Shown piece after piece: positions 7,419 through 37,927 of a stretch of 39,759 nt of DNA. A program made the position numbers and the translations under genes. The stretch spans positions 73,029 to 112,787 of the forward strand of contig PCUY01000074.1 of assembly GCA_002787815.1 (NCBI GenBank), written 5' to 3'. Below the pieces are notes generated by a model. That model was given only the letters and a program-made list of their open reading frames with translations. It was not told the DNA's origin and did not search any database. Numbering within the stretch: the first letter of the stretch is position 1; each line of letters begins with the position of its first letter. This DNA is from Bacteroidetes bacterium CG12_big_fil_rev_8_21_14_0_65_60_17. Its GTDB lineage: Bacteria; Bacteroidota; Rhodothermia; Rhodothermales; UBA10348.

Positions 7419-7892
7419 TCAGGGAGATGTCACTGTCAGATAGGCGTAGGCCAGAACCAGGATGTCAATCATGATGAGCAGAAACAGTACGACGGTCTCA
7501 AACATGGAGAAGTGACGTCGCGCCTCGTAGGCGCGCCGGACTTCACGGCTCTTGATGAAGCCTCGCCGATCGTTTGTCATCAGGATGGCGACCTGTACAA
7601 TGATGGCCGAGAAGGTCATCCAGGCCCAGCCCAGGTCGAGCGTCATGGGAAGTATGGCGCCGGCCGCCCCGACGGGAGCCACAAGCCAGAAAACAACGAT
7701 GGCTGGCAGACCGATCTTGCGGTCACCGAGGTCGTGACGCTTCGTCGTACGTACGGTGCGTCGTTGTCTCACGTTCAGGTCCAGGGTTTTCAGATTCACG
7801 GGTGCCTTGTTGCAGGGTGCCTTGTTGCAGGGTGCCTTGTTGCAGGGTGCACGGGAATATACGCTTCCCACATTCGGTGGCGCTACCTGCAC
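7419..7892 (-). CDS. Small membrane protein of unknown function with APCNK repeats
   Basis: Up to 157 residues from a GTG at 7892, 12 bp after the Nudix stop, so it is probably the last gene of the sulfur operon. The N-terminus holds three copies of Ala-Pro-Cys-Asn-Lys from a perfect 15-bp tandem repeat, then a basic linker. Two hydrophobic segments follow (about 62-82 and 86-106), then a charged cytoplasmic-type loop (NDRRGFIKSREVRR) and a final hydrophobic helix (about 130-153). I do not recognise the family. An alternative start is the GTG at 7799, preceded by AAGG at good spacing. That would give a 126-residue protein and put the repeats in the leader instead of the protein. Confidence 0.6.
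   Translation of the reverse strand: MQVAPPNVGSVYSRAPCNKAPCNKAPCNKAPVNLKTLDLNVRQRRTVRTTKRHDLGDRKIGLPAIVVFWLVAPVGAAGAILPMTLDLGWAWMTFSAIIVQVAILMTNDRRGFIKSREVRRAYEARRHFSMFETVVLFLLIMIDILVLAYAYLTVTSP
7801..7850. repeat. Perfect 15-bp tandem repeat, 3.3 copies
   Basis: ggtgccttgttgcag occurs at 7801, 7816 and 7831, followed by ggtgc. The copies are identical, which suggests recent slippage. On the minus strand each copy carries AAGG, a possible ribosome-binding core, just upstream of an in-frame GTG at 7799. Confidence 0.95.
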
Positions 7893-13391: not shown

Positions 13392-13404
13392 GTGTGGGAA
13401 GAGG

Positions 13405-13833
13405 TCAGTGGGGCAGCCACGGCCGGAGCCGGCCGTACGCATATGTGCCCGCCAGCGCGGAAACAATGAGAACCGACATGACGCCGATGCCGTTCCCCAG
13501 GAGGGCAAACATGGGGGCGGGACAGGCGCCTGTGAGCGCCCAACCGAGCCCGAAGATGGTGCCCCCCAGCCAGTACTGGGTGCCGAACCGGGAGAGCGGT
13601 TGGGCAGGAAGCGCGACAGGCTCCCCGCTGGCGGTGGTCAGGCCCCTACGCCGTATGATACGGATGGATGCGGCGCTCACCGTGATGGCCCCCGCGATGA
13701 TGCCGTACATGTGGAAAGACTGGAAGCGGAACATTTCCTGGATACGGAACCAGGAAATGACCTCGCCCTTCGTGGCCAGAATGCCGAAGGCGATGCCGAG
13801 GAAAAGGTAGGGTAGGAGTGTGCGAAGCGTCAT
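13405..13833 (-). CDS. DUF6691 / YeeE-YedE half transporter
   Basis: 142 residues with four hydrophobic segments (about 5-20, 42-60, 88-108, 113-135). It contains the YeeE/YedE hallmark Cys in the motif LTGACPAP, on the same membrane half as a glycine-rich helix (GTIFGLGWAL). DUF6691 proteins occur paired with a short YeeE, and the pair corresponds to the two halves of full-length YeeE (thiosulfate uptake) proteins. The YeeE half is encoded just upstream and the MBL-rhodanese 13 bp downstream. Inferred substrate: thiosulfate or a related reduced sulfur species. Confidence 0.88.
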   Translation of the reverse strand: MTLRTLLPYLFLGIAFGILATKGEVISWFRIQEMFRFQSFHMYGIIAGAITVSAASIRIIRRRGLTTASGEPVALPAQPLSRFGTQYWLGGTIFGLGWALTGACPAPMFALLGNGIGVMSVLIVSALAGTYAYGRLRPWLPH

Positions 13834-13881: not shown

Positions 13882-13925
13882 GGGATGTCAGATTCCGGAT
13901 GTCAGATTCCGGATGTCACATTCCG
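13882..13925. repeat. 14-bp direct repeat, three copies
   Basis: The unit cggatgtcagattc occurs three times in tandem (first copy gggatgtcagattc, third cggatgtcacattc). On the minus strand each unit contains TGA; the copy nearest yeeE supplies its stop codon and last residues. Each unit boundary rebuilds TCCGGA, a short palindrome related to the arms of the neighbouring 18-bp palindrome. Confidence 0.85.
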
Positions 13926-14449
13926 GAGAGGAGCAGCGGGAGCAGCAGATGCGTGGCAATCAAGCCGCCCGTGAAGAAGCCAATTATGGCAATGAGGCTG
14001 GGGAGTTGGAGTGAGGCCAGCCCCGTGATGGCGTGGCCCGAGGTACAGCCGCGTGCGTATCGGGCGCCAAATCCGATCAGGAAGCCGCCACCTGTCAAGA
14101 GTATGAGGCCTTCCAGGCGGCCGAGGCTCTGAAATGATATGATTTCGCGCGGAACGAGCCCCTGGAAATCAGTAATGCCAAGTAGTGCCAGGTCCTGACG
14201 GGTCGCCTCCGATATGGCAACGGGATCCGGGTTCTGCATGAAGGTAGCCACGAGTACGCCGCCCAGGAAAATGCCGGCAAGCATGGCCATATTCCAGGCC
14301 TCGTCGCGCCAGGAGTGGACGCCGCACATGGTCTGCAGGTTGACGGAAATGTCGAAGCGTTTACTGCCGAGCAGAAGCAGGGCAGGTACAACGAGTCCTA
14401 TGAGCGGCCCGACAACATACCAGGGCCACGGGCCGGTGAGAATGTCCAT
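13916..14449 (-). CDS. YeeE/YedE-family permease half
   Basis: 177 residues from ATG at 14449 (MDILTGPWPWYVVGP); the longer open frame upstream runs through AT-rich spacer and the recJ end and is unlikely to be coding. Hydrophobic helices lie at about 10-30, 52-72, 112-135 and 150-172. The conserved RYARGCTSGHAITG motif (Cys near residue 140) is the YeeE/YedE signature that handles thiosulfate sulfur in characterised members, and MCGVH carries a second Cys. First gene of the sulfur operon; its last codons are formed by the 14-bp direct repeat. Confidence 0.88.
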   Translation of the reverse strand: MDILTGPWPWYVVGPLIGLVVPALLLLGSKRFDISVNLQTMCGVHSWRDEAWNMAMLAGIFLGGVLVATFMQNPDPVAISEATRQDLALLGITDFQGLVPREIISFQSLGRLEGLILLTGGGFLIGFGARYARGCTSGHAITGLASLQLPSLIAIIGFFTGGLIATHLLLPLLLSGM

Positions 14450-21963: not shown

Positions 21964-23715
21964 CTACTTCAGGCGGCGCTTTCGCGCTTTGGCACCGTTG
22001 ATACCGGGGGCAGGTGTGTGCTTGGAGGGCACGCGCTTGCGGGGTGGTTTCGTGCCTCCCTGCTGGCCAGGCGTGGAAATATCGAGCTTCCGGCCGCAGA
22101 CCCAGACGTTCTTGAGTGCCAGAAACACATCCTTTGGCATACCGGCGGGCATATCCACCAGGCTGTGATCATCCCGGATATCGATCTGGCCGATGTAGCG
22201 GGCATCGAGGCCCGTTTCGTTGGCGATAGCGCCCACCAGGTTGCCGGGCTTCACGTCGTGTGATTGGCCGACCTCCACGCGGTAGGTAAGCATGCCGACG
22301 CGGCTTCCCGGTTCTCTGCTTTCCGGGTCGCGGCGGCCACTTTGGTCGCCCGATCGACTGCGCTCTCCGCGTCCGGAGCGATCAGGTCGATCAGAACGGC
22401 CGTTCCTGGTCTCAGCCTTGAGCACGAGATCGCGTCCGCCGAGAGCCATTTTGGCCAGGGCGGCAGCGATTTCAATGGCTGGTACGTCATGATCGGCCTG
22501 GTACTGCTCGACGAGTCGTTGCAGGAAATCGAGCTCGCCCGCGGCGAGGGTGTCCGTTATACCTTGCTTGAAATCGGCAATGCGCTTGTTGGATACCATT
22601 TCCACGGTCGGCAGCTTCATGGGCTCAACCTTCTGGCGCGTGGCGCGCTCAATGGCCTGCAGCATGCGCCGCTCCCGCGGGGCCACGAACAGGATGGCTT
22701 TTCCCTGGCGTCCGGCGCGGCCGGTCCGGCCAATACGGTGGATATAGGACTCCGTGCCGTGCGGGATGTCGTAGTTCACAACGTGCGTAATGCGGTCCAC
22801 ATCCAGACCGCGGGCCGCCACATCGGTCGCAACCAGGATATCCAGGCTGCCCGACTTGAGGCGCTCGACCATCTGCTCCCGGTGGGGCTGCGCCATGTCG
22901 CCATTGAGGGCCGCCGCAGAATATCCGCGCGCCTCCAGTCTTTCGGCCAACTCGGTTGTAGCTACTTTCGTCCGCACGAAGATGAGCATGCCCTCAAAGG
23001 GCTCGACCTCGAGGATCCGGGTGAGCGCATCGAGTTTGTGCATGCCGCTGACGAGCCAGTAGGTCTGCTCAATGAGGGCGGCGGTGGCTGTTTTGGCCTT
23101 GATCGCTATCTCATGGGCGTTGGACAGATGTTTTTTGGCAATACGGACAATCTGCGTGGGCATGGTCGCCGAGAAGAGCGCAATCTGTCGCGTGGGGGGC
23201 GTCTGTTCGAGCACCCATTCCACATCGTCAATGAATCCCATGCGCAGCATTTCGTCGGCCTCATCGAGGACGAGGGCCTGTAGCGCATCGAGCTTCAGCG
23301 TACCTTTGCGCATGTGGTCCATGACACGTCCCGGTGTGCCTACGATGGCCTGTACACCGCGCTTGAGCTGGCGTATCTGCCCGCCGTAGGCCTGGCCGCC
23401 ATAGACGGGAAGCACATGGAATCCGGGCAGATGGTGTGCATAACGCTGCAGGGCCTCGGCCACCTGGATGGCCAGCTCACGGGTCGGCGTGAGCACGAGG
23501 AGCTGCACGTTGCGGCTCGAGAGGTCAATCCGTGCGAGCAGCGGCAGCGCGAAGGCTGCCGTCTTGCCAGTACCCGTCGGGGCGCGACCTACCAGGTCGC
23601 GCCCCTCCAAGAGCGGCCCAATGGCCTCTTCCTGGATGGGGGATGGCGTTTCGTAGCCGACGTCGCGGATGGCCGCCATGAGTGGCTCCGGGAGGTTGAA
23701 GTCCGAAAAGGTCAT
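21964..23715 (-). CDS. deaD: DEAD-box ATP-dependent RNA helicase with DbpA-type RNA-binding domain
   Basis: 583 residues. It has a Q motif (FNLPEPLMAAI ... PSPIQ), motif I APTGTGKT (usually AQTGTGKT in this family), PTRELA, TPGRV, DEADEML, SATMP, and HRIGRTGR. After the helicase core, about residues 385-455 form a charged linker, and 490-560 (YRVEVGQSHDVKPGNLVGAI... DMP) is the DbpA/CsdA RNA-binding domain, followed by a basic KR-rich tail. Such helicases remodel rRNA and mRNA, often in ribosome assembly or cold adaptation. Its ATG is 6 bp after the stop of the upstream helicase gene, so both come from one transcript. Confidence 0.95.
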   Translation of the reverse strand: MTFSDFNLPEPLMAAIRDVGYETPSPIQEEAIGPLLEGRDLVGRAPTGTGKTAAFALPLLARIDLSSRNVQLLVLTPTRELAIQVAEALQRYAHHLPGFHVLPVYGGQAYGGQIRQLKRGVQAIVGTPGRVMDHMRKGTLKLDALQALVLDEADEMLRMGFIDDVEWVLEQTPPTRQIALFSATMPTQIVRIAKKHLSNAHEIAIKAKTATAALIEQTYWLVSGMHKLDALTRILEVEPFEGMLIFVRTKVATTELAERLEARGYSAAALNGDMAQPHREQMVERLKSGSLDILVATDVAARGLDVDRITHVVNYDIPHGTESYIHRIGRTGRAGRQGKAILFVAPRERRMLQAIERATRQKVEPMKLPTVEMVSNKRIADFKQGITDTLAAGELDFLQRLVEQYQADHDVPAIEIAAALAKMALGGRDLVLKAETRNGRSDRPDRSGRGERSRSGDQSGRRDPESREPGSRVGMLTYRVEVGQSHDVKPGNLVGAIANETGLDARYIGQIDIRDDHSLVDMPAGMPKDVFLALKNVWVCGRKLDISTPGQQGGTKPPRKRVPSKHTPAPGINGAKARKRRLK

Positions 23716-23721
23716 GCTGAT

Positions 23722-25050
23722 TTACCGCCTGCGCCGCGAGGAGCGGGAACTGGATGAACGTCCGCCAGAGGATGAGCGGCCGTTTGAAGATGCTCGGCTG
23801 CCGGATGAGCGGCCATTGGATGAACGACCACCGGAAGCGCGGCCCCCGGAGGACGAGCGACCTGCGGATGATGTGCCGCGCTGCGGTCCGTCGGCGTGCC
23901 TCGTGGCAATCCGTTCGTCGTGATAGGCGTGCTCCGTATCTACCGTGACTTTCTGCCGGATGATGTGCTCAATGGCGTGCAGGTAGGCGATTTCGTCGAA
24001 GTCGCAGAAGGAGAGGGCAGCGCCATCGGCACCAGCGCGGGCCGTGCGGCCAATGCGGTGGACGTAGCTTTCCGGTTCGTTCGGGAGATCGAAATTGATG
24101 ACGTGGCTGACATCGTCCACGTCAATGCCGCGCGATGCGATGTCGGTGGCGACGAGGACCCGCGTGCGGCCGTCCTTGAAGCCTTCGAGGGCGCGCTGGC
24201 GTGCCGTCTGGGACTTGTTGCCGTGGATGGCATCGCTGCCAATGCCCCGCTGGCCCAGGAATTTGGCCACGCGATTCGCGCCGTGCTTCGTGCGCGTGAA
24301 GACAATGGCGCGGTCGAGCGCGGGGTTGTCGAGAAGATCGTGCAACAGCTCGCGCTTGTTGGCTTTTTCAACGAAGAGAACGCGCTGGGACACCTTTTCG
24401 GCGGTTGTTGCTTCCGGCTTGATGTCAATGCGCTCGTAATCGTGAAGCAGCTCGGAGGCGAGTTTCGTGATGGCCTGCGGCATGGTAGCCGAAAAGAAGA
24501 GTGTCTGGCGGCGCGGGGGCAGCTCGGACACGATCTTGTTGACGTCGCGGATAAAGCCCATGTCGAGCATGCGGTCGGCTTCGTCGAGGACGAAGATTTC
24601 CACCGAGCCCAGGTCAATCCAGCCCTGGTCAATCAGATCGAGCAAACGACCGGGCGTGGCAATCAGTGTGTCGACGCCGCGCCGCATGGCCTGTACCTGC
24701 GGGTTCTGTCCCACGCCGCCGAATACGACGGTGTGACTCAGACGGAGATGCTTGCCGTAGGCGGTCATGCTCTCGCCAATCTGAATGGCGAGTTCACGCG
24801 TCGGCGTAAGGATAAGTGCGCGCGGGGCGCGGGGTTCGGGCCGGCGCCGCCTGGCGTCGAGCTGCTGCAGGATGGGCAGCGTGAAGGCAGCGGTCTTGCC
24901 GGTGCCGGTCTGGGCCACGCCAAGCACGTCACGGCCTTGGGCCGCGTGTGGAATGGCTGCAGCCTGTACGGGGGTGGGTGTGTCGTAGCCTTGGGCCGCA
25001 ACAGCACGCAGAAGGGGCTCAATGAGTCCCAAATCGGAAAAAGAAGTCAA
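23722..25050 (-). CDS. rhlE: DEAD-box RNA helicase, RhlE type, with Ser/Gly/Arg-rich tail
   Basis: 442 residues from a TTG start at 25050; the only in-frame start that keeps the Q-motif region ([11 protein letters not shown] ... PTPVQ), since a stop lies just upstream. [25 protein letters not shown] (RhlE signature), [14 protein letters not shown] and HRIGRTAR are complete. The last ~55 residues are a low-complexity SSGRSSGG/RRRR tail that likely binds RNA or drives condensation, as is usual for RhlE in many phyla. It is followed by the second helicase after 6 bp. Weak Shine-Dalgarno sequence. Confidence 0.95.
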
Positions 25051-25253
25051 AAAATCGGGGGAAAGAGTGCGGTCGCGCCGCCGTCGGAATAGAGCTGGAG
25101 CACCAGGATGGGGCGGTCAGATGTGAATGCTGGCGCCGCCTGCGCGAATCCTGGATGCTGTTGGCCAATTTGGGCCAGTCAAATAGAATGCTACCTATTG
25201 GGGATAGTTCCCCGCATGGGCACCCGAACGGGCACCACGGAATGGAAAAGGTG

Positions 25254-25327
25254 TGGGCGATGTAGGATTCGAACCTACGACCTCCTGTGTGTAAGACAGG
25301 CGCTCTAACCAACTGAGCTAATCGCCC
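25254..25327 (-). tRNA. tRNA-Val (anticodon TAC)
   Basis: Clover-leaf read on the minus strand: acceptor GGGCGAT/ATCGCCC with discriminator A, D-arm GCTCAGTTGGTTAGAGC, anticodon stem CCTGT/ACAGG with 7-nt loop CTTACAC, so anticodon TAC, and the T-arm with GGTTCGAATCC. CCA is not encoded. It lies 12 bp downstream of the Gly tRNA and is likely from the same precursor. Confidence 0.97.
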
Positions 25328-25339
25328 CCTGGCACGTGG

Positions 25340-25412
25340 AGCGGGAAACGGGATTCGAACCCGCGACCCTCAGCTTGGGAAGCTGATGCTCTACCAACTG
25401 AGCTATCCCCGC
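25340..25412 (-). tRNA. tRNA-Gly (anticodon CCC)
   Basis: Minus strand: acceptor GCGGGGA pairs with TTCCCGC (one G-T pair), D-arm GCTCAGTTGGTAGAGC, anticodon stem TCAGC/GCTGA with loop TTCCCAA (anticodon CCC) and T-arm with GGTTCGAATCC. CCA is not encoded. It is upstream of tRNA-Val and divergent from rpmH, with 127 bp between. Confidence 0.97.
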
Positions 25413-25539: not shown

Positions 25540-25695
25540 ATGAAGAGAACGTACCAACCCAGTAGACGCAAACGGGCCAATAAGCACGGATTCCGCTCCC
25601 GCATGGCCACCAAGAACGGTCGTCGTGTTCTGGCGCGTCGCCGCGCGAAGGGCCGCACGAACCTGTCGATCAGCGATTCAAAGCCCGGCAAGTAA
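25540..25695 (+). CDS. rpmH: Ribosomal protein bL34
   Basis: 51 residues, hand-translated: [18 protein letters not shown] with the bL34 core [19 protein letters not shown]. It belongs to the large subunit near the nascent-chain exit tunnel. The canonical order rpmH-rnpA-yidC follows at once; the stop (25693-25695) is one base before the rnpA GTG. The C-terminus is a few residues longer than in E. coli ([11 protein letters not shown]). Confidence 0.98.
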
Positions 25696-25696
25696 C

Positions 25697-26158
25697 GTGC
25701 AGGGCCGGTTTCCGCGCTCAGCCCGCCTGAAACGGCGGCGGCTCATCCGGGAACTTTTTGACCGCGCGGCTACCGGCACCATGTCATTCGGTGTGGGCTG
25801 CATCCGCGTCATGGCGCGCCGCGTCCCCTCCGATGAGGCTGGCCCCGGCCACGCGGTGAGAGCCGGATTTGCCGTTCCCAAAAAAACAGGCCATGCCGTG
25901 CGCAGAAACCGGATCCGGCGCATAATGCGGGAAACCTGGCGGGAAAAGTATTCATTCCGGGGCGAAGAAGACACGCTTGCCGCCGACAACGTCGCACAGA
26001 CAGATGTACTCACGGTCATGTTCCTTTTTCGGAACCCGGGTGCAACGGAAGAGGACCTTCGGCGTGACATGAGGGTTGCGGCAGGATGGCTCCGGACGGC
26101 GGCCGCTTCAGCGCGTTCCCAATCCCACCCACATTTCGACAGTCAAGCCCGTGGATAG
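25697..26158 (+). CDS. rnpA: Ribonuclease P protein component
   Basis: 153 residues from GTG at 25697. The longer frame upstream only reads through rpmH. The RNR signature is present as RRNRIRRIMRE (about residues 73-83), along with FAVPKKTGHAVRRN. RnpA supports the RNase P RNA in 5' tRNA processing. The stop overlaps the yidC start by 8 bp (GTGGATAG holds both GTG and TAG), so the two are tightly coupled. The C-terminus is longer than usual and low in conservation. Confidence 0.95.
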   Translation: MQGRFPRSARLKRRRLIRELFDRAATGTMSFGVGCIRVMARRVPSDEAGPGHAVRAGFAVPKKTGHAVRRNRIRRIMRETWREKYSFRGEEDTLAADNVAQTDVLTVMFLFRNPGATEEDLRRDMRVAAGWLRTAAASARSQSHPHFDSQARG

Positions 26159-28091
26159 AAACGTCGTTACAGCGACCGTGCTGATCGCCATCATCATGGT
26201 GGTGTGGCTCATGTGGCTCACGCCGCCGCCCCCACCAGTGGATGGACCGGTAGATGCGCCCGCCCAGGAAAACGTAACCGGACAGAACAGTGATCCGGGT
26301 CAGACTGCGGGTCAGGATTCGGCGGCGGAACGGCGCACGGCTGACCGCGAGTCCGAAATCCGCGAAGCGCCGCAGCGCGTGGGTTCGGTGATCCGCGTGG
26401 CAGATGGCGACTCGCTCGTTACGCCAGCCCGTGGGCGCGCCGAGCAGCGCTTCCGCGTGGAAAACGATTTGTATACGGCCGTGCTGTCCTCGCACGGCGG
26501 GACGTTCACGTCGTTTGAACTCGGCGAGTTCACGATTGCCGGATCGGAGCGCCCCGTGCAGCTTGTAGACACAACAAAAGCGGGCGCGCTGGGACTTATT
26601 TTCACGTCCCCCGCATCGCGCATCTACGATACGCGGGCCCTTCATTTCGATTCGTCTCGCCGGGACACGCTCATCCGCGTCTCGGGAGCCGGGGAAACGC
26701 TCACCTTCACGACGCGGATTGCCGGCGGCCAGGTGCGCTACGTCTACACCTTCCGGCCAGACACGTACGAGGTCGGCCTCCGCGTGGAGCTCGATGCACC
26801 GGAAACGTTCGTCACGCCGCAGGGCTACGAGCTGGCCTGGAATGGCGGCATTCCCTTCACCGAGAAGAACATCGAGTCGAGCTCGGCGCAGTCGGGCGCC
26901 TATGCGCGCAGTGGCGGCGAGGTCGAGGCCGTCCAGGTGGCATCGGATCCGTACGGCGAGAAGACGCTCAACGGAGCGGTGGATTGGGTAGCGGTCAAGA
27001 GCAAGTATTTCACGGTCGCCATCATGCCGCAGGCCACGACGCGCGGCGCCGACCTGATCGGGGAGCGCTTCGGCGACGTGTCGCAGACCTACCTGCGGCA
27101 CGACTACGTGGCGAGTCTGCGCATGCCGCTTCCGGATGCGGGGGGCGTGGCCGGAGGCGGGCATGATTTCACCATGTATATGGGACCCATGGAGGTACGG
27201 CGCATTTCGCGCTACAACGTGGACCTCTATGACATGGTCGACTACGGGTGGGACTTTTTCGAGGTCATCACGCGGCCGCTGGCCAAGTTCGTGTTCACGC
27301 CGGTCTTTGATTTCATGGCCCGGTTCGTGCCCAACTACGGGCTCGTGATCATTCTGCTCTCGCTGCTCATCAAGCTCGTCCTCTCGCCGCTCACGAAGAG
27401 CTCCTTCCGCAGCATGGCAAAGATGAAAGAGCTGCAGCCGCGCATGGAGGCCATCAAGGAGAAGTACCCGGACGATCCGACGAAGCAGCAGCAGGCCATG
27501 ATGAAGATGTACAAGGAGACGGGAGTGAATCCGCTCGGCGGATGCCTGCCGATGCTGCTCCAGTACCCGATCATCATTGCGCTGTGGCAGTTCCTGCCGC
27601 AGGCCATTGAGATCCGGCAGCAGGGCTTCCTGTGGGCGGCTGACCTTTCGGCACCAGATGTGATTCTGCAGCTTCCCTTCACGATTCCCTTTTTCGGGGA
27701 TTTCGTGGCGGGCTTCACGCTTCTCATGGGTATTTCGATGGTCTTCCAGATGAAAATCCAGATGGCATCGACGCCCTCGAACGCACAGGCCAAGATTTTC
27801 ACGTATGTGATGCCGGTCATGCTGTTCGTGATTTTCAACCGCCTGGCGAGTGGTCTGAGCCTCTACTATCTGTGCTACAACGTGCTCACGGCGCTGCAAC
27901 AGCGGCTCATCAACCGCCAGATTGCGGCCGAGAGTGAGGCGGCCAAGGCCGCAGGTGATGGCGTCGGCGCGGCGGGCGCATCCAGCGGAAATAAAGCGCC
28001 CAGAAAATCGCGGTTCAAGAAAGCGGCGCCACTCAGCAAGACCGGGAAGACGAAGCGTTCCTACCTTTCGTCAAGCAAGAAACGGAAGTAA
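26151..28091 (+). CDS. yidC: Membrane protein insertase YidC
   Basis: 646 residues from GTG at 26151. The N-terminal helix (VVTATVLIAIIMVVWLMWL, about 5-23) is followed by a Pro/Asp-rich periplasmic segment and a large beta-type P1 domain (about 95-375), as in Gram-negative YidC. The conserved insertase core follows (FVPNYGLVIILLSLLIK, then PRMEAIKEKYPDD, NPLGGCLPMLLQYPI, LPQAIEIRQQGFLWAADLS in parts), with five hydrophobic helices. The tail is strongly basic (RKSRFKK ... SSSKKRK), which favours ribosome contact. It inserts and folds inner-membrane proteins, alone or with SecYEG. Confidence 0.96.
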   Translation: MDRNVVTATVLIAIIMVVWLMWLTPPPPPVDGPVDAPAQENVTGQNSDPGQTAGQDSAAERRTADRESEIREAPQRVGSVIRVADGDSLVTPARGRAEQRFRVENDLYTAVLSSHGGTFTSFELGEFTIAGSERPVQLVDTTKAGALGLIFTSPASRIYDTRALHFDSSRRDTLIRVSGAGETLTFTTRIAGGQVRYVYTFRPDTYEVGLRVELDAPETFVTPQGYELAWNGGIPFTEKNIESSSAQSGAYARSGGEVEAVQVASDPYGEKTLNGAVDWVAVKSKYFTVAIMPQATTRGADLIGERFGDVSQTYLRHDYVASLRMPLPDAGGVAGGGHDFTMYMGPMEVRRISRYNVDLYDMVDYGWDFFEVITRPLAKFVFTPVFDFMARFVPNYGLVIILLSLLIKLVLSPLTKSSFRSMAKMKELQPRMEAIKEKYPDDPTKQQQAMMKMYKETGVNPLGGCLPMLLQYPIIIALWQFLPQAIEIRQQGFLWAADLSAPDVILQLPFTIPFFGDFVAGFTLLMGISMVFQMKIQMASTPSNAQAKIFTYVMPVMLFVIFNRLASGLSLYYLCYNVLTALQQRLINRQIAAESEAAKAAGDGVGAAGASSGNKAPRKSRFKKAAPLSKTGKTKRSYLSSSKKRK

Positions 28092-28095
28092 CGCC

Positions 28096-29472
28096 GTGCA
28101 TGAGGGGACGATTGTGGCGCTTGCCACACCGCGGGGCCAATCGGCGCTCGCGGTGATTCGCATGTCGGGGCCCGAAGCGATTTCGGTGGCCGACCGGGTG
28201 CTCTCGGGCGTGGATCTCGCGGCATCCGAAAGCCATCGCCTGCACGTGGGAAGCGTGCGGGACGCCGACGGCGCAGCGCTCGACCAGGTGGTGGCTGGGA
28301 TTTTCCGGGCGCCGCAGTCGGCGACGGGCGAGGATGTGGTTGAGATCACGTGCCATGGGGGCGATGTCGCGGCAACGCTTGTCATGTCGCGCCTTGTGGA
28401 AGCGGGGGCGCGGCAGGCCGGTCCGGGAGAATTCACGCGACGGGCATTCATGAACGGAAAGATGGATCTGGCGCAGGCCGAAGCCATTGCCGATCTGATC
28501 CATGCTCGCAGCGAGCGTGCGCATCGTGTGTCGGTGGCGCATCTGTACGGGCGCTATTCGGAGCTCATCCGTTCTTTCCGGGAGGACATGCTCGATCTGG
28601 TTTCGCTCATCGAGCTCGAAATGGATTTTACCGACGAGGACGTGGAGTTTGCGGACAGGCGGCGGCTCGATGCGCTCCTGGAGCGCGGGCTTTCGCTGCT
28701 TGGCGAGCTGGAGGCATCGTACCGCTACGGGCGGACGCTCTCGGACGGCATCCGCGTGGCCATTGCCGGGCGTCCGAACGCGGGCAAGTCTACACTGCTC
28801 AATGCGCTCGTGGGCGCAGACCGGGCCATTGTGTCGGCAGAAGCCGGAACGACGCGGGACAGTATCGAGGCGGAATCGCTGGTCGATGGGCACCGGATTG
28901 TGTGGGTAGATACGGCGGGGGTGCGCGCCTCCGGCAGTGCGATCGAGGCCGAAGGGGTGGAGCGCGCGCGGCGCGTAGCCGTCGGGGCGGATGTGGTGCT
29001 CTACGTGGTCGATGCCAAGGCGGGCATGCTCGACGTGGAGCGGCAATGGCTCGCCGGGGTCGATGCGGCGGCGTACGTCATGCTCTACAACAAGCGGGAT
29101 CTGATGCCGCGCGAATGGACGCCGCCCCAGGGCAGTTTGGCCGTGTCGGCGACGTCGGCCGTGTCCGAGGCCGGGGCGGCGGAACGGGGCGGGTTGCAAC
29201 CGGTACTTCATGCCGTGCTGGAAGCGGGCGGCGCAACGGGCGCAACGACCGATGAGCATCGCACGGTGACAAGTGCCCGCCACGCGGCGCATATCCGGGC
29301 GGCGCATGAAGCGCTTCGGCGCGCCGCCAATGCGTTTCGCTCGGGCGTAAGCCAGGATGCGCTCTCGATGGATCTGCGCGCGGTGCTCGATGAGCTCGGA
29401 ATGATCACGGGTGAGATCACGAACGAGGATGTACTGGCCCGGATATTCTCGCGCTTCTGTATTGGCAAGTAA
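28096..29472 (+). CDS. mnmE: tRNA uridine-5-carboxymethylaminomethyl(34) synthesis GTPase MnmE
   Basis: 458 residues from GTG at 28096, four bases after yidC; the track of open frame before it lies inside yidC. N-terminal folate-binding domain ([21 protein letters not shown]), a helical domain, and an inserted G domain with GRPNAGKST (about 225-233), DTAG (272-275), NKRD (332-335). The C-terminal FCIGK provides the essential Cys. With MnmG it makes the 5-carboxymethylaminomethyl group on U34 of tRNAs that read NNA/NNG. mnmG follows after 32 bp. Confidence 0.97.
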
Positions 29473-29504
29473 AAGGGAGACAAGGAGTTAGGTGGAACTT
29501 GGAT

Positions 29505-31451
29505 ATGACTGACCAGGCGTTTGATGTGATTGTCGTGGGCGGTGGCCATGCGGGTGCGGAGGCAGCTTCGGCAGCCGCCCGCTCGGGTGCGCGCACGCTG
29601 CTCGTGTCAATGAGCCTGGAGGCGCTCGGGCGCATGTCGTGCAACCCGGCCATCGGGGGGATCGGAAAAGGACAGATTGCCCGCGAGGTGGATGCGCTCG
29701 GCGGGATCATGGGCCTCGCGACAGATGAAAGCGCGCTGCAGTTCCGGATGCTCAACCGCTCAAAGGGGCCCGCCGTCTGGTCGCCGCGCGCGCAGTGCGA
29801 CCGCCAGGCGTATGCCGCGGCCGTGCGGCGTCACCTGGAGCGCGAAGCGAATCTCTTCATGCGTGCCGACATGGTGACGGATCTGGCGGTCGAGGATGGG
29901 CGCGTCGTGGGCGTTGAGACGCAGCTTGGCATGCGCATTGCCGCGCGGGCCGTCGTGCTCACGAGCGGTACGTTCATGAACGGGATCATCCACGTGGGTG
30001 CGAAGCAGTACGGGGGCGGGCGCATGGGAGAGGGTGCATCGAAGGGGCTGACGGGCGCGCTGCACCGGCTGGGTTTTGAGAGTGGGAGGCTGAAGACGGG
30101 TACGCCTCCGCGCATTGACGGCCGGACCATTGATTATGGCGCGCTGGAGGAGCAGTCGGGCGACGAGGTGCCAGCGCCGTTTTCCTACATGACGGACGCG
30201 GTCACGACGCGCCAGCGCAGCTGCTGGATTACGTATACAAGTCCCGAAGTTCATGACATCCTGCGCTCGGGCTTCGATGACAGTCCCATGTTTTCCGGGC
30301 GCATCCAGGGGACGGGGCCCCGCTACTGCCCATCGATTGAAGATAAGATTGACCGGTTCGCCGACAAAAACCAGCACCAGCTGTTCCTGGAGCCTGAGGG
30401 GTGGGATACCGAAGAGGTCTACGTAAACGGCTTTTCGACAAGCCTTCCCGAGGAAACGCAGCGGCAAGCGCTGGCGCGCATTCCGGGTTTGGAGCGCGCC
30501 CACGTGCTGCGGCCGGGCTACGCCATTGAATATGACTACTTTCCGCCGCATCAGCTGCGCTACACACTCGAGACAAAGCGCGTTCGGGGTCTGTTCTTTG
30601 CCGGTCAGATCAACGGCACAACGGGGTATGAGGAGGCCGCGGCCCAGGGGCTGATGGCCGGGCTGAATGCAGGCCGGTACGCCGTGGGCGGGGTCACGGC
30701 GCCCGCCGGTATGGCCTCTTATGGTGCGGCGTCCGAGGGGATTGTGCTGAAGCGCTCCGAGGCGTACATCGGCGTTTTGATTGACGACCTGGTGGCCAAG
30801 GGCACGGAGGAGCCCTACCGGATGTTTACGTCCCGCGCCGAACACCGCATGCTGCTCAGGCAGGATAATGCCGACGACAGGCTGACCGACATGGCAGCGT
30901 CGTGGGGCCTTGTCGGTGAGGAGCGGATGGCGCGCCTTGCGGCGCGGAGGCGCTCGGCGCAGCGCCTCACGCAGTGGCTGGAGTCGACTAATGCGCAGCC
31001 GGACGTCGTGAACGACTGGCTGGCATCGCTCGGAACGTCCCCCATCGTACGTCCGGAGCGGCTTTCGCGGCTGGTTTTGCGCCCTGAAGTGTCACTTTCG
31101 GCGCTGATCGAGCGGTGCGGTCCGTATCAGGGGGAGGAGCCGCTCCTCACGGGCCCGAATGGCGTCGTGGAGCTCGTGGAGACGAATTTCAAGTATGCCG
31201 GGTACGTGGAGCGCGCGCAGGACGAGTTGGACCGCTTTGAGCGCACGGAGGCGCAAGCCCTGCCCAGGAATATCGCCTACGATCAGATAAAGAGCCTCTC
31301 CATGGAAGCACGGGAGAAGCTGCAGCGCATTCAGCCGGACAATCTGGGCCAGGCATCGCGCATTTCGGGCGTCAGTCCTGCCGATATATCCGTACTCATG
31401 ATGCTTGTGAAGGCGGGGCGGGTGCCGAGCGCGCCGGTGGAAGCAAAGTGA
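29505..31451 (+). CDS. mnmG: tRNA uridine-5-carboxymethylaminomethyl(34) synthesis enzyme MnmG (GidA)
   Basis: 648 residues from ATG at 29505; a TTG at 29499, closer to the AAGGAG at 29482-29487, would add two residues, so the start is uncertain by six bases. FAD Rossmann motif [15 protein letters not shown], followed by [23 protein letters not shown] (in parts: [22 protein letters not shown]), the [10 protein letters not shown] segment, and the C-terminal tRNA-binding helical domain ([16 protein letters not shown]). Partner of MnmE in wobble-uridine modification. The stop is 1 bp before the first parS-like site. Confidence 0.97.
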
Positions 31452-31452
31452 A

Positions 31453-31468
31453 TGTTACACGTGAAGCA
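31453..31468. promoter_or_regulatory. Degenerate parS-like site
   Basis: TGTTACACGTGAAGCA differs at two positions from the perfect 16-bp ParB-binding sequence TGTTTCACGTGAAACA found 59 and 119 bp downstream. It begins the tandem-repeat array and sits right after the mnmG stop. Confidence 0.6.
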
Positions 31469-31511
31469 ATGGGGGGTGGATGGTACCTCGTGCCGCGTGT
31501 TGGGACGGAAA

Positions 31512-31527
31512 TGTTTCACGTGAAACA
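31512..31527. promoter_or_regulatory. parS: parS centromere site
   Basis: TGTTTCACGTGAAACA is a perfect palindrome and the universal bacterial parS consensus bound by ParB to seed chromosome-segregation complexes. It lies beside the mnmE-mnmG-rsmG cluster, its usual place near oriC. Confidence 0.93.
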
Positions 31528-31571
31528 ATGTGGGGGTGAACGGTGTCCTTTGCCGCGTGTTGGGACGGAAA

Positions 31572-31587
31572 TGTTTCACGTGAAACA
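31572..31587. promoter_or_regulatory. parS: parS centromere site
   Basis: Second perfect TGTTTCACGTGAAACA, 60 bp after the first in the same repeat. It ends 15 bp before the rsmG start, so ParB bound here could also affect rsmG expression. Confidence 0.93.
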
Positions 31588-31602
31588 ATGTGGGGGCCAA
31601 GG

Positions 31603-32379
31603 ATGCCGCTGATGCCTCCCATACCGCTGTCGGAACAGCAGGAAGAGCGTCTGCGCTCCTTTGAACGATTGCTTTGCGATGTGAATCAGCGCTTCAATCT
31701 GGTTTCGCGGGGCGAGGAAGGTGCTATCTGGGAGCACCACATTCTGCACTGCTTGGTGTGCGCTGTGCGCGGCGCACCGCGCCGCGGCTGTGTCGTGGAC
31801 TGGGGAACAGGCGGCGGTCTGCCCGCCATTCCGCTCTCGATCGCGTGGCCGGAGACACCTGTTTTCGCGGTCGATTCCAACGCCAAGAAGACGCGGGCCG
31901 TGACGCTCTTTGCGCGCCGCCTGGGCCTTGACAACTGCACGGCGGTGCCTGTCCGCGCCGAGCAGATTACGGCCCGTGACTTTCGAGAGGCACCTCCTGA
32001 CGGGCGTCCGTACGAGGACCACGGCTCGCTTCTTTCCGTTTCCCGCGCCACGGCGCCGCTTTCGACGCTCTGGGCGTGGCACGAACGGGCGCGCGGCCTG
32101 CGTGCGCCGGGCGATAGAGGACCAGAGGGGCGTGCTGAGAGAGCAGCGGGCCTGGACACGCCCTCAGGAGCACAGCCGGCAGCGTCGGGCCCCGCGCCGT
32201 GGGAGCCGGGTCTACTATGTCTCAAGGGCGGGGATCTGCGGGAAGAACTGGGCGCGTTTGCATGGCAGTATCCCCAGGCGCAGGTGCGCGCATACGATGT
32301 CCGTGACTACCTTGACGATCCCTGGTTCGAGACCAAAAAACTGCTGCACATAACCGAACCCCATGGCACAGAATCCTGA
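31603..32379 (+). CDS. rsmG: 16S rRNA (guanine-N7)-methyltransferase RsmG
   Basis: 258 residues from ATG at 31603; an ATG at 31612 with AAGG nine bases upstream is an equally good start. The frame upstream reads through parS as NVSRET and is not part of the gene. RsmG signature: LLCDVNQRFNLVSR, then the SAM loop VDWGTGGGLPAIPLSIAWP and a DSNAKKTRAV acidic strand, and late LLCLKGGDL. It methylates G527 of 16S rRNA (E. coli numbering). Between SVSRATAPLSTLWAW and LLCLKGG there is an extra Ala/Gly/Pro/Arg-rich insertion of about 35 residues. It overlaps the WYL-regulator start by 17 bp. Confidence 0.93.
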   Translation: MPLMPPIPLSEQQEERLRSFERLLCDVNQRFNLVSRGEEGAIWEHHILHCLVCAVRGAPRRGCVVDWGTGGGLPAIPLSIAWPETPVFAVDSNAKKTRAVTLFARRLGLDNCTAVPVRAEQITARDFREAPPDGRPYEDHGSLLSVSRATAPLSTLWAWHERARGLRAPGDRGPEGRAERAAGLDTPSGAQPAASGPAPWEPGLLCLKGGDLREELGAFAWQYPQAQVRAYDVRDYLDDPWFETKKLLHITEPHGTES

Positions 32380-33367
32380 CAAGGAAGGCACGCGAACGGA
32401 CCGGCTGTTTGCCATGATCCTGCTCCTGCAGCAGCGCCCGAGCATGACATCGCGCGATCTGGCCGAGTATTTTGGCGTAAGCCGGAGGACGATATTCCGC
32501 GATTTGCGCTCACTTACCGATTCCGGCGTGCCCCTTGCGTATTCGGAGGGCGGAGGCTATGAAATACTCGAAGGGTACCAGCTACCGCCCCTCATGGTGA
32601 CCGCGCGTGAGGCGGCCACGCTGCTCGTCGGCACCGAGTTCATGAAGCTCCAGGGTGAAACGGCGCTTGGCCGGGACGCCGAAGAAGTGGCGCTCAAGAT
32701 CAAGGCCGTGCTACCGCGCGAAGTCAAGGATTTCGTGAGTACGCTTCTTGACCGCACCGTACTCGATCCGTTCTGGACGCAGGCCGTGGCGCATGAGGCG
32801 GAAGAAACGGAGCGCTGGCACAAGGTCAGCGAGGCTGTAGCCCGAGGGCAACGTGTGGTCATGGAATACTGGGTGGAGAGCCGGAAGGAGCTGACGAAGC
32901 GGCGCGTGGACCCGCTTGGACTCGTCTACTACACCGACCACTGGAATCTGATTGCCTTTGACCATCTGCGCAGTGAAGTCCGCAACTTCCGCTTGGACCG
33001 CGCCAAGAGCCTTTTTGTGTTGAGCGAGCGCTTCACCTGGCCTGAGGGGTTTGATCTGCCAGCGTATCTACTCGAGCGTGGTATGGGTGCCGACGCGCCA
33101 CAGATCACGGTCGACGTGGCGCGCAACGTGCTTCGCCGCTTCGAGGCTGAACTGCCGGCGCGGCTGGAGCGGGAAAATGCGTCTCTTCCGCCGGAGCCAG
33201 CGGACGAGGGTAGGGATCCGGTGCGCGTCACCTTCCAGTTTGACAACCTGGACTACATGGCGGCGTGGCTGCTCCGCTTTTCGGCCGATGTGACAATCAT
33301 TTCGCCCGATGCGCTCATCGACCGGCTGCGCTCCGCACTGTCAGCCATCGCCAGCAAATACGAATAA
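32363..33367 (+). CDS. WYL-domain helix-turn-helix transcriptional regulator
   Basis: 334 residues. The N-terminal winged helix (about 12-65, RDLAEYFGVSRRTIFRDLRSL) is of the DeoR/YafY type. The WYL domain is at about 145-215 (VVMEYWVESRKELTKRRVDP, then YYTDHWNLIAFDHLR with the typical arginine near RNFRLDR), followed by a WCX extension. WYL regulators sense nucleic acids or other ligands and act in DNA-damage, phage-defence and metabolic control. Overlap with rsmG suggests co-transcription. Target genes unknown. The canonical parA/parB at this place is absent. Confidence 0.9.
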   Translation: MAQNPDKEGTRTDRLFAMILLLQQRPSMTSRDLAEYFGVSRRTIFRDLRSLTDSGVPLAYSEGGGYEILEGYQLPPLMVTAREAATLLVGTEFMKLQGETALGRDAEEVALKIKAVLPREVKDFVSTLLDRTVLDPFWTQAVAHEAEETERWHKVSEAVARGQRVVMEYWVESRKELTKRRVDPLGLVYYTDHWNLIAFDHLRSEVRNFRLDRAKSLFVLSERFTWPEGFDLPAYLLERGMGADAPQITVDVARNVLRRFEAELPARLERENASLPPEPADEGRDPVRVTFQFDNLDYMAAWLLRFSADVTIISPDALIDRLRSALSAIASKYE

Positions 33368-33393
33368 AAAGTAATGATTTTTGTGGCATGTTT

Positions 33394-33416
33394 GTAATAT
33401 ATCTATAATATATTAC
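33394..33416. other. AT-rich perfect inverted repeat between convergent genes
   Basis: Arms GTAATATAT and ATATATTAC (9 bp) surround CTATA, in an otherwise GC-rich genome, between the WYL-regulator stop and the mfd stop. It could be a weak bidirectional terminator or a protein-binding/DNA-unwinding site. An all-A/T stem is thermally weak, which speaks against a classical terminator. Confidence 0.5.
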
Positions 33417-33477
33417 CGCGCAACGCGTTACAGCCACTACAAGCGCACTTCGGACCGCCTGAGACGCGCAAAATTCA

Positions 33478-36400
33478 TCAGGACCGGGTGAGCATGTGAC
33501 CGCGTGCGGTCTGAGCGCCTTCCAATCCGGCCCGCTCCAGGGCATCAGATGCAATGTGACCAAGCACCCCGCAGGCCTCGTCGATCGTAGCCACCTCCTG
33601 GACAATGGCGCGAAGCTTCCGGCTGCGACTCTCCTTGAGTACGTAGCGTTGGTTGAGTTCGGCAAGCGCCGCGAGCAGCGGATGGAAGAGATGTTCGAAG
33701 AACCACGGATCCTCGTCGTTGTCCGGGACCGTCAGGAAGAGCCGCTCGTTCTTGAACACGACCCGTGGCAGGCGGAGCTTTTCGCCGAGCAGCTTGAGAC
33801 GCATGCCGGCGAGGAGCTGATCCACTTCATCGGGCGCAGGTCCGAAGCGGTCCTCAAGCTCCTCGCGGATTTCCGCGAGCGCCTCCTCGGTAGCCGCCTC
33901 GGCAATACGTCGGTAGACATTCAGCCGCTCAACACGGTTCTGCACAAACGAGTCGGGAAGCAGCGCGTCCGCATCCACATCGACAACGGTTTCCTGCGCC
34001 CGCGTCGGCGCGGGCGCGGCGCCCTCTGAGCCGAATACTTCCCGGAACTCGGTCGTTCTGAGCTCGTCGACCGCCTCGTCCAGAATCCGGTGGTAGGTTT
34101 CAAAGCCCACGTCCTCGATGAAACCGCTCTGCTCGGCGCCCAGCAGGCTTCCCGCCCCGCGGATGTCGAGATCCCGCATGGCCAGTTGGAACCCGGCGCC
34201 GAGATTGCTCAGTTCCTCGACCGCCTGCAATCGCTGGCGGGCCTCGCGGGTCAGACCGTGGATGGACGGCACGAGCAGGTAGCAGAACGCCTTCCGGCCG
34301 CTGCGGCCGACGCGGCCCCTGAGCTGGTGCAGCTCCGAGAGCCCGAAATGATCGGCCCGGTTGATGATGATCGTGTTGGCATTTGAAATATCCAGCCCGT
34401 TCTCGATAATCGAGGTGCTGACCAGGACGTCGAACTTCGCATCCACAAAATCCATCATCACCTTCTCGAGTTCGGAGCCCTTCATCTGGCCGTGCGCCAC
34501 ACGGATACGCACGTCGGGAATGAGCATGCGGAGCGTATCGGCGATTTCGTGGATGCTCTCAACGCGGTTGTGGATGAAAAAGACCTGCCCGCCGCGCGAA
34601 AGCTCGTGCACGATGGCATCGCGGATGAGATCCTTGTCGTAGGTGTGGATTTCGGTCAGGATGGGCTGCCGGTTGGGGGGCGGCGTGGCAATGATAGAGA
34701 GGTCGCGCGCGCCGAGGAGCGAAAACTGCAGCGTGCGAGGGATGGGGGTAGCCGTGAGCGTCAGCGTATCGACGTTCACGCGCAGGGTGCGCAGTTTTTC
34801 CTTGACGCCTACGCCGAAGCGCTGCTCCTCATCCACGATCAGCAGGCCGAGGTCCTTGAACGCGACATCTTTTGAAATGAGGCGGTGCGTGCCGATGGCC
34901 ATATCGATGGTGCCGTCCTTGAGGCCCGCAAGCGTTTCCTTGATGCTGGATGCGGACGCGAAGCGCGACAGAATACCAATGCGGACCGGAAAATTGGCAA
35001 AGCGGCGCTGGAAGGAGCGGTAGTGCTGCGCAGCGAGCACGGTCGTCGGGACAAGAACGGCGACCTGTTTGCCGTCCTGGACGGCCTTGAACGCCGCGCG
35101 CATGGCGACTTCTGTTTTGCCGAAACCCACGTCTCCGCAGACGAGGCGATCCATCGGAACCGCCTGCTCCATGTCCTCTTTGACCGCTTGGGCGGCCGTC
35201 GACTGATCGGGCGTATCCTCGAACTCGAACGATGCCTCGAGCTCGCGCTGCCAGACGCTGTCCTCGGCAAAGGCGTATCCGCGGCTTTCCTTGCGCTTTG
35301 CGTAGAGCGCAATCAGCTCGCGCGCAATATCCTTGACACGACTTTTCGTGCGCGACTTGGCCTTTTCCCACTGCCCGCTGCCGAGCTTCGTGAGAACCGG
35401 CTGATGTCCCTCTTTTCCCTTGTATTTATGCAGTTTATGCAGGGCATTGACGTTCACGTAGAGCGTATCGCCATTGAGGTAGGAAAGGCGCACGGCTTCC
35501 TGCTGTCTACCGCGCACTTCAATGCGCTCCAGGCCCGAAAAGCGGCCAATGCCGTAGTCGATATGCACCACGAAATCGCCGGGCGAAAGGTGCTGCAACT
35601 CGCGCAGGCTGATGCCGCCGTAGCGCTGCTTCTGTTGCCGGGTCGTCGGCCTGTGGTAGCGCCCGAAAATCTGATGGTCCGTATAGAGGGCGAGCCCGGC
35701 GTCCGGCAGGTCGAACCCCTCGTGGAGCGATTCGACGCGGAGCTGGACGCACCCCTCCTCGACGTCTTCCTCTAAAAGCTCGAGCAGCCGCCCTTCCTGG
35801 CCCTGATTGTCACAGAGAATCGTGGTCTGCAGCCCGCCAGCGTGGTTCTCGGCGAGCCGCTGCCGAAGAAGGGCTATTCTCGATGCGAACGCGGGCTGTG
35901 CACGCGCGCCGAAATCAATCGTGACGGGAGATGCGTCGCTTTCCGGCACACCCGGACCGCCCGATTCCTGGAAGCTCCCGAACTGCAGTGTCACAAGCGC
36001 CGAGAGTGCCGCCCGGATACCGTCTGTAGTGCTGTAAAAGGCAGCGGCGGGCGGCACCTCCCCGCCCGATCTGCCCGTCTCCTTCCCCGACTCGACGAGC
36101 GCGCTTCGCCGCGATGCTACATCATCGTAATATGCGGCGGCCTGCTCGTACAGCGCCTGGCTGTCCTGCATCATGACGACCGTCGTATTTGGCAGGTAGT
36201 CGAGGATGGAGACCCAGGCGGCGCCCGCCGCCGCCCCGGCACCCGTTCCCGAAGCCGGCGCCTCCAGATTCGGCACAATGCGGGCCGATGTGCGCCGGCT
36301 CACCGAGCGCTGCGTGTGGATGTCAAACTCGCGGATTGAATCGACCTCGTCCCCGAAAAACTCAATCCGCAGCGGATACGATCCGGTGAACGGATACACG

Positions 36401-36954
36401 TCCAGAATCCCCCCGCGAAGCGCCATGTCGCCCGGTGCCTCCACAAACTCCGTGCGCGTAAACCCTTGGCCCACAAGCCGGTCTATCAGGCTTTCCGGCG
36501 CCACGCTCTGCCCCGTCTCGATGTCGAGCGCGGCGCCGCGGACAACACTTGCCGGCGGCACTTTCTCGACGAGCGCATGGATACTGGAAACCAGTATTCC
36601 ACCGAACCCCTTCTCCAGTACCTGCAGTACTTCGCCGCGCTGGATAACCGGCTCGGGGCTTGGCACATGCTCCGGATCGAAGGGCCGGTTGTCCGACGGT
36701 GGCAGCAGCAGCACGCCCTCCTCGCTCGCCAGGATCTGCTCAGCATCGCTCGCAAACCAGGCCGCGCGGTCCGCATCTTCCAGAATGACAAGAACGGGGC
36801 GCTCATGCCGCCCCCCGATGTGGGCCGCTACGAATGCAGGAAGCGATCCAGCCACGTCGCGAAGCCGTGCGCTCCGCCCCTCGCCGAGCGCGCTGTCAAG
36901 CGCTTTCGCGGCCGGTGTCGCAGAGAACGAGGCAAAAAAGGGAGCGAGCGACAT
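33478..36954 (-). CDS. mfd: Transcription-repair coupling factor Mfd
   Basis: 1158 residues from ATG at 36954, normal for Mfd. N-terminal UvrB-like part (about 1-340, including FDPEHVPSPEPVIQRGEVLQ in parts), the RNA-polymerase-interaction domain (DFVVHIDYGIGRFSGLE and KYKGKEG), then a RecG-type translocase: GDVGFGKTE (about 604-612), DEEQRFGV (about 705-712), TATPIPRTL, and GLSELHQLRGRVGRSGRKAFCYLL in parts. C-terminal TRCF domain present. It removes stalled RNA polymerase at lesions and recruits UvrA. Its start is 7 bp after murQ. Confidence 0.98.
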   Translation of the reverse strand: MSLAPFFASFSATPAAKALDSALGEGRSARLRDVAGSLPAFVAAHIGGRHERPVLVILEDADRAAWFASDAEQILASEEGVLLLPPSDNRPFDPEHVPSPEPVIQRGEVLQVLEKGFGGILVSSIHALVEKVPPASVVRGAALDIETGQSVAPESLIDRLVGQGFTRTEFVEAPGDMALRGGILDVYPFTGSYPLRIEFFGDEVDSIREFDIHTQRSVSRRTSARIVPNLEAPASGTGAGAAAGAAWVSILDYLPNTTVVMMQDSQALYEQAAAYYDDVASRRSALVESGKETGRSGGEVPPAAAFYSTTDGIRAALSALVTLQFGSFQESGGPGVPESDASPVTIDFGARAQPAFASRIALLRQRLAENHAGGLQTTILCDNQGQEGRLLELLEEDVEEGCVQLRVESLHEGFDLPDAGLALYTDHQIFGRYHRPTTRQQKQRYGGISLRELQHLSPGDFVVHIDYGIGRFSGLERIEVRGRQQEAVRLSYLNGDTLYVNVNALHKLHKYKGKEGHQPVLTKLGSGQWEKAKSRTKSRVKDIARELIALYAKRKESRGYAFAEDSVWQRELEASFEFEDTPDQSTAAQAVKEDMEQAVPMDRLVCGDVGFGKTEVAMRAAFKAVQDGKQVAVLVPTTVLAAQHYRSFQRRFANFPVRIGILSRFASASSIKETLAGLKDGTIDMAIGTHRLISKDVAFKDLGLLIVDEEQRFGVGVKEKLRTLRVNVDTLTLTATPIPRTLQFSLLGARDLSIIATPPPNRQPILTEIHTYDKDLIRDAIVHELSRGGQVFFIHNRVESIHEIADTLRMLIPDVRIRVAHGQMKGSELEKVMMDFVDAKFDVLVSTSIIENGLDISNANTIIINRADHFGLSELHQLRGRVGRSGRKAFCYLLVPSIHGLTREARQRLQAVEELSNLGAGFQLAMRDLDIRGAGSLLGAEQSGFIEDVGFETYHRILDEAVDELRTTEFREVFGSEGAAPAPTRAQETVVDVDADALLPDSFVQNRVERLNVYRRIAEAATEEALAEIREELEDRFGPAPDEVDQLLAGMRLKLLGEKLRLPRVVFKNERLFLTVPDNDEDPWFFEHLFHPLLAALAELNQRYVLKESRSRKLRAIVQEVATIDEACGVLGHIASDALERAGLEGAQTARGHMLTRS

Positions 36955-36961
36955 GCGGGCC

Positions 36962-37927
36962 TCAGTCCTTTTCCCGGGTAGATGCGCCGGACGCCGCCGG
37001 GCTGTACGCTTCGCCCCTCGCCGCCGGGCGCACAAAGCCCGATGCGCGGGCAAGACGCCTTTCGGCATCGCCCCGGTCCGTATCTGCCAGATGCATGACA
37101 AGCGCCGTTTTGACGTGGCCACCTGCCTCTTCCAGCAGCGCCGTCGCCTGCGCATAGTCAAGCCCCGTGACTGTCATCACTGTGCGGCGCGAGCGCTCAA
37201 TGAGCTTGGCGTTCGTCATCTGGAGATCCACCATCATGTTCTCGTAGACTTTTCCCATGCGGATGAAGGCGGCCGTCGTGAGCATGTTCAAGACGAGTTT
37301 CTGCGCCGTGCCGCTCTTCATGCGCGTCGATCCCATGATGACTTCGGGGCCGACGACCGGGCAGATGGCCACGTCAACCGGGAGCGTGAACGCCTTGCGC
37401 GGCGTGCAGGTCACAAAAAGAGTCCGCGCGCCGATGTCCCGCGCTTTTTTTACGGCGCCCACGACATAGGGTGTGCGCCGGCTTGCAGCAATGCCGCAGA
37501 CCACGTCGCGCGCCGTAACGCCCGCCTCCTCGATGGCCTGGGCGCCGTTTTCCTCCAGGTCCTCCGCGCCTTCCTGCGACTTGAAGACCGCAGGCGGGCC
37601 GCCCGCAATCAGGCCCTGCACCATTTCCGGGGGGCTGCCGAACGTCGGCGGGCACTCGGATGCATCGAGAATGCCAAGCCGCCCACTCGTTCCCGCTCCC
37701 GCGTAGAACAGCCGCCCTCCGGCCCGGAACGCATTGACAATGATCGTTACCGCCTCCTCAATGTATGGCAGCTCAGTGCCCACCGCCTCCGGCACCAAGC
37801 GGTCCTCCGCGTTCATGATGCGAAGAATCTCGCCGACCGTTGCCACGTCAATCTGCATGGACCGCGGATTGCGCTGCTCGGTGGCAAGATTCCGGAGCTC
37901 GTTGAACAGGTCGGACGTGTTGGGCAT
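36962..37927 (-). CDS. murQ: N-acetylmuramic acid 6-phosphate etherase
   Basis: 321 residues; ATG start in the 37.9 kb divergent region. SIS-fold lyase that cleaves the lactyl ether of MurNAc-6-P to GlcNAc-6-P plus D-lactate in peptidoglycan recycling. Visible: FYAGAGTSGRLGILDASECPPTFG (in parts FYAGAGTSGR, DASECPPT) and the GIAASRRTPYVVGA segment, and ST-rich GSTRMKSGTAQKLVLNMLTT. The C-terminal ~25 residues are an extra Ala-rich tail. The mfd gene starts 7 bp after its stop, so the two form one operon. Common alternative pairing is with anmK or a PTS, not seen here. Confidence 0.96.
   Translation of the reverse strand: MPNTSDLFNELRNLATEQRNPRSMQIDVATVGEILRIMNAEDRLVPEAVGTELPYIEEAVTIIVNAFRAGGRLFYAGAGTSGRLGILDASECPPTFGSPPEMVQGLIAGGPPAVFKSQEGAEDLEENGAQAIEEAGVTARDVVCGIAASRRTPYVVGAVKKARDIGARTLFVTCTPRKAFTLPVDVAICPVVGPEVIMGSTRMKSGTAQKLVLNMLTTAAFIRMGKVYENMMVDLQMTNAKLIERSRRTVMTVTGLDYAQATALLEEAGGHVKTALVMHLADTDRGDAERRLARASGFVRPAARGEAYSPAASGASTREKD

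Follow-up and report, generated by a model that had tools for sequence, protein, structure and literature searches.

We have identified an array of parS sites between mnmG and rsmG that, with a probability of about 94%, represents the origin-proximal chromosomal centromere, or part of it, of a Rhodothermales bacterium. Judged by its sequence, the array appears to be an ordinary chromosomal centromere, an element of a kind already known. It lies in a window of 39,759 nucleotides, the whole stretch of DNA that was analysed, and consists of the following features.

31451-31602, unstranded: tandem array with units at 31451-31509 (59 bp) and 31510-31569 (60 bp) and a partial unit at 31570-31602
31453-31468, unstranded: degenerate parS copy TGTTACACGTGAAGCA, 2 mismatches to TGTTTCACGTGAAACA
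31512-31527, unstranded: perfect parS TGTTTCACGTGAAACA, 0 mismatches
31572-31587, unstranded: perfect parS TGTTTCACGTGAAACA, 0 mismatches, 15 bp 5' of the rsmG ATG

The gap of 151 bp between mnmG and rsmG is occupied throughout by a 60-bp tandem repeat in about 2.5 copies, and Tandem Repeats Finder reported a period of 60 with 2.5 copies and 89% matches at 31451-31596. In a gapped alignment, the first and second units are identical at 52 of 61 positions, and the partial third unit (31570-31602) equals the second over its first 27 bases and then enters the rsmG start. The perfect sites spaced 60 bp apart arose through local tandem duplication of the 60-bp unit. The first copy is decaying and has lost two core bases, one of which is position 5, which is free in the published consensus tGTTNCACGTGAAACa as printed in PMC7022226. 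All three sites are 16-bp palindromes of this consensus type, two of them perfect and one with 2 mismatches. Accordingly, direct reading of the sequence bore out the description in the earlier note of two perfect palindromes and one degenerate palindrome in near-identical repeats of 59-60 bp.

When the window was scanned for TGTTTCACGTGAAACA with up to 3 mismatches, matches were found at 31453 (2 mismatches), 31512 (0), 31572 (0) and 17661 (3), the last of which is unrelated to the array; the shuffled window gave a mean of 0.05 matches and never 4. A first-order Markov model predicts 0.00026 perfect sites in 2.9 Mb, and an expectation of about 0.0003 per 2.9 Mb excludes chance as the origin of the array. 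The genome-wide count of parS sites that the earlier note had called for showed that the array sites are the only ones with up to 2 mismatches in the 2.9-Mb draft genome of the window (90 assembled contigs, 95.5% complete); further parS sites may lie in the DNA that the draft lacks. The looser pattern GTTNCACGTGNAAC with 1 mismatch was uninformative in this genome, giving 8 matches and 8 for the reversed control pattern.

The array is embedded in the gene order rpmH-rnpA-yidC-mnmE-mnmG-[parS]-rsmG-WYL regulator-mfd, whose members are located as follows.

25540-29472, plus strand: conserved block rpmH-rnpA-yidC-mnmE upstream of mnmG
25540-25695, plus strand: rpmH, recognised by inspection of a 51-aa open reading frame
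25625-26158, plus strand: rnpA
26076-28091, plus strand: yidC
27922-29472, plus strand: mnmE
29499-31451, plus strand: mnmG (gidA), upstream neighbour of the array (Pfam GIDA, 9e-163; TIGR00136, 795 bits)
31603-32379, plus strand: rsmG (gidB), downstream neighbour of the array (Pfam GidB, 1e-22), start placed by homology
32363-37161: downstream part of the conserved block, with the WYL regulator and mfd
32363-33367, plus strand: WYL-domain regulator
33478-37161, minus strand: mfd

In NCBIfam, the sole match of rsmG is TIGR00138, under its cut-off. The rsmG start at 31603 (ATG) was chosen from the alignment starts in relatives, and alternative in-frame starts are present at 31588 (ATG) and 31543 (GTG); the distance of 15 bp between the last site and rsmG given in the earlier note is true for the homology-supported ATG at 31603. 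Considering that the palindromes sit right after mnmG and before rsmG, they might mainly serve the transcription of the mnmG-rsmG operon, as a terminator or as an operator for an unrelated regulator, with the likeness to parS being secondary, and the parS palindromes that are extended to 32-34 bp in two relatives (G013 and G018, loci L134 and L144) could form hairpins. We consider this very unlikely, because the core matches the universal parS sequence exactly and is also found elsewhere, beside mfd, in other families. A terminator or promoter was also rejected in its own right, as no terminator- or promoter-like match was found in 31300-31700.

Other features of the window were recorded alongside. 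At 8576-13508, a pair of neighbouring SulP-type sulfate permeases that carry STAS domains lies beside a metallo-beta-lactamase/rhodanese protein, and the AT skew there rises to about 0.23. A pair of DEAD-box RNA helicase genes in succession, one of which has a DbpA domain, is located at 21964-25412, and two tRNA genes (25254-25412) adjoin this pair. Short tandem repeats are present at 1-125 (15-bp units, 8.5 copies), 7800-7850 (15-bp units, 3.4 perfect copies) and 13883-13927 (14-bp units, 3.2 copies).

In the ParABS system, ParB is loaded onto DNA at parS in the form of a CTP clamp, slides, and builds the partition complex for ParA and SMC. A genome-wide search showed that the genome of the window encodes one HTH_ParB protein, on contig C23, with parA directly upstream of parB; the array is on another contig. 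Against the PDB, this ParB matched Spo0J at 5e-50, with the N-terminal and DNA-binding domains covered. The protein keeps the nucleotide-binding motifs GERR and ENxQR and has the equivalents of the specificity residues R173 and G201 (positions that we read off alignments), and arginine and glycine at these two positions are absolutely conserved in ParB orthologs (PMC7383237). A cognate ParB that combines the CTP motifs with DNA-binding residues of the parS type is present in the same genome. Together with the canonical motif and the family-conserved position of the sites, this canonical ParB upholds the identification of the palindromes as parS.

On the other hand, the best full-length NCBIfam match of this ParB is the Noc model, though well below its cut-off (246.8 bits against 315), and the array might accordingly be a ParB/Noc site for nucleoid occlusion rather than for segregation. 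Noc sites, according to PMC4331003, have another sequence than parS and are scattered round the chromosome, whereas the array sites are confined to the origin region and the ParB has the parS-type arginine and glycine, which makes a role in nucleoid occlusion extremely improbable. A Noc-binding site (NBS) was likewise rejected as a class: neither the NBS sequence nor a QKKR-type Noc was found, the sites being parS and the ParB having the R and G residues.

The position of the array relative to the origin of replication was derived from two relatives with near-complete chromosomes, G028 and G038, since the genome of the window is itself in 90 contigs. In G038, the GC-skew minimum and a DnaA-box cluster coincide near 12.7 kb and parS is found at 59-61 kb, a distance of about 46 kb from oriC. 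In G028, the GC-skew minimum and a DnaA-box cluster coincide near 31.5 kb, and parS is at a distance of 88-94 kb. By gene order, the equivalent of the G028 DnaA-box gap in the genome of the window is C52:55456-55733, about 49 kb from the array. This segment exceeds its surroundings in AT content and coincides with the local minimum of the cumulative skew. Across the 113-kb contig, it is the only place where two relaxed DnaA boxes lie within 400 bp; the boxes are weak, few are recognisable at this predicted oriC, and the DnaA-box support in this genome itself is weak. The dnaA gene is 86 kb from the array. These results support an origin-proximal array, predicted to lie about 49 kb from oriC. 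The GC-skew check proposed in the earlier note, run in the two relatives and transferred by synteny, agrees with its placement of the array near the origin, not far away.

Two further observations concern parB and dnaA. In G028, parB is found at 503.6 kb and in G038 at 689.4 kb, which places it some 470-680 kb away from the oriC deduced for these genomes, whereas parAB is usually origin-proximal. Also, the genome of the window encodes two DnaA proteins, as do most family members and several other families of the order: one is a 498-aa open frame at C52:17983, and the second, at C51:1-2216 (L128), is truncated by the end of the contig and immediately precedes an mreB-like gene.

The sites are conserved among relatives in their place. 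A parS with up to 1 mismatch was found in 51 of 60 genomes, including that of the window, often beside mnmG/rsmG or mfd. All 20 family genomes with an intact gap have at least one parS in the mnmG-rsmG gap or at its edge, and 11 of them have at least two; family members in which rsmG is absent or the gap is broken by a contig end were left out of the 20. The spacings of the sites in the family are 44, 57, 58, 60, 67, 68, 101, 102, 114, 238 and 432 bp, on which grounds a conserved 60-bp spacing or helical phasing was rejected. Clear likeness between the flanks of neighbouring sites is limited to the genome of the window and to G047, a member of another family, with weak hints of likeness in G041 and G028, and a common tandem origin of the family pairs was rejected as well. 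Accordingly, clustering by tandem duplication, as claimed before, stands for the genome of the window and does not extend to the other pairs of the family, which have no recognisable tandem origin, though two sites are common. By comparison of these sequences, the tandem duplication of 60 bp took place locally and is, within the family, seen in this genome alone. In G047, three parS sites in a 56/57-bp tandem repeat adjoin mfd, and this triple is an independent case; other families of the order carry the same parS core beside mfd.

Among 34 sites of the family, base pairs 1-3 outside the core are complementary in 56, 53 and 44% of cases, where 25% would be expected, and none of 2000 re-pairings of the flanks attained the excess seen over the first six outer pairs. 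The sites in the genome of the window are without this excess outside the 16-bp core. No specific report came to light in literature searches that combined parS with mnmG/rsmG or with Rhodothermus.

The earlier note had read the tandem duplication as selection for a strong ParB loading zone. This was not supported, as one of the three copies has decayed, which argues against strong selection for three sites. Considering also that roughly half of the family members have just one site in the gap and that one parS suffices in Pseudomonas aeruginosa, according to PMC4368675, the duplication may be a neutral product of slippage, with one parS being enough and the extra copies drifting. However, pairs recur in the family, in three genera whose spacers are unrelated and whose cores are intact, and cores that are kept while the intervening DNA varies bear the signature of purifying selection acting on the sites. 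This recurrence suggests that pairs are maintained, and we give neutral duplication, which is compatible with a centromere, somewhat less than even odds.

If the array is a centromere, ParB dimers from the parAB operon on C23 would dock on every 16-bp parS, form closed clamps in a CTP-dependent manner and slide to the flanking DNA. A partition complex would then form, which ParA would move and which may load SMC; with 60 bp between them, the two sites could take up two dimers simultaneously, which may be of some advantage. A more extended proposal is that the whole centromere of the family is confined to the short mnmG-rsmG gap, at a distance of tens of kb from oriC, while parAB has been relocated by hundreds of kb, that sites turn over by duplication and spacer remodelling under selection for at least two, and that ParB over the rsmG start could tune rsmG expression; taken jointly, we regard this as unlikely. 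The array offers a compact comparative example of a centromere gaining and losing ParB sites, in which the place is fixed, the cores are conserved, the spacers change freely and tandem duplication is occasional. Additionally, it serves as a marker for the origin region in an order that has been little studied.

Compared with known systems, the array is like the chromosomal parS of Bacillus subtilis, Caulobacter and Pseudomonas in its 16-bp palindrome type, its origin-proximal position and its canonical ParB. Its sites are 60 bp apart within a tandem repeat, whereas about 5-39 kb separate the strongest sites of Bacillus, and Caulobacter has five strong sites inside 5 kb (PMC5815017); the authors of that study argued that new parS sites are best tolerated next to old ones. 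The earlier statement that parS sites are usually scattered singly was too strong in view of the clusters published in Caulobacter (PMC5815017) and Myxococcus (PMC3899335). As a dense repeat of parS near the origin, the array resembles the cluster of Myxococcus xanthus, which differs in having far more sites, 22 in 3 kb with the consensus TGTTCCACGTGGAACG, and parAB about 4 kb away (PMC3899335) rather than on another contig. Within the Rhodothermales, the array shares its syntenic region (mnmG-rsmG and mfd) with the clusters of G028, G042 and G052 and with the G047 triple. Unlike in the array, the sites in G028 and G042 form two clusters of 3-4, separated by about 5 kb, and the G047 triple is a separate 56/57-bp tandem repeat next to mfd.
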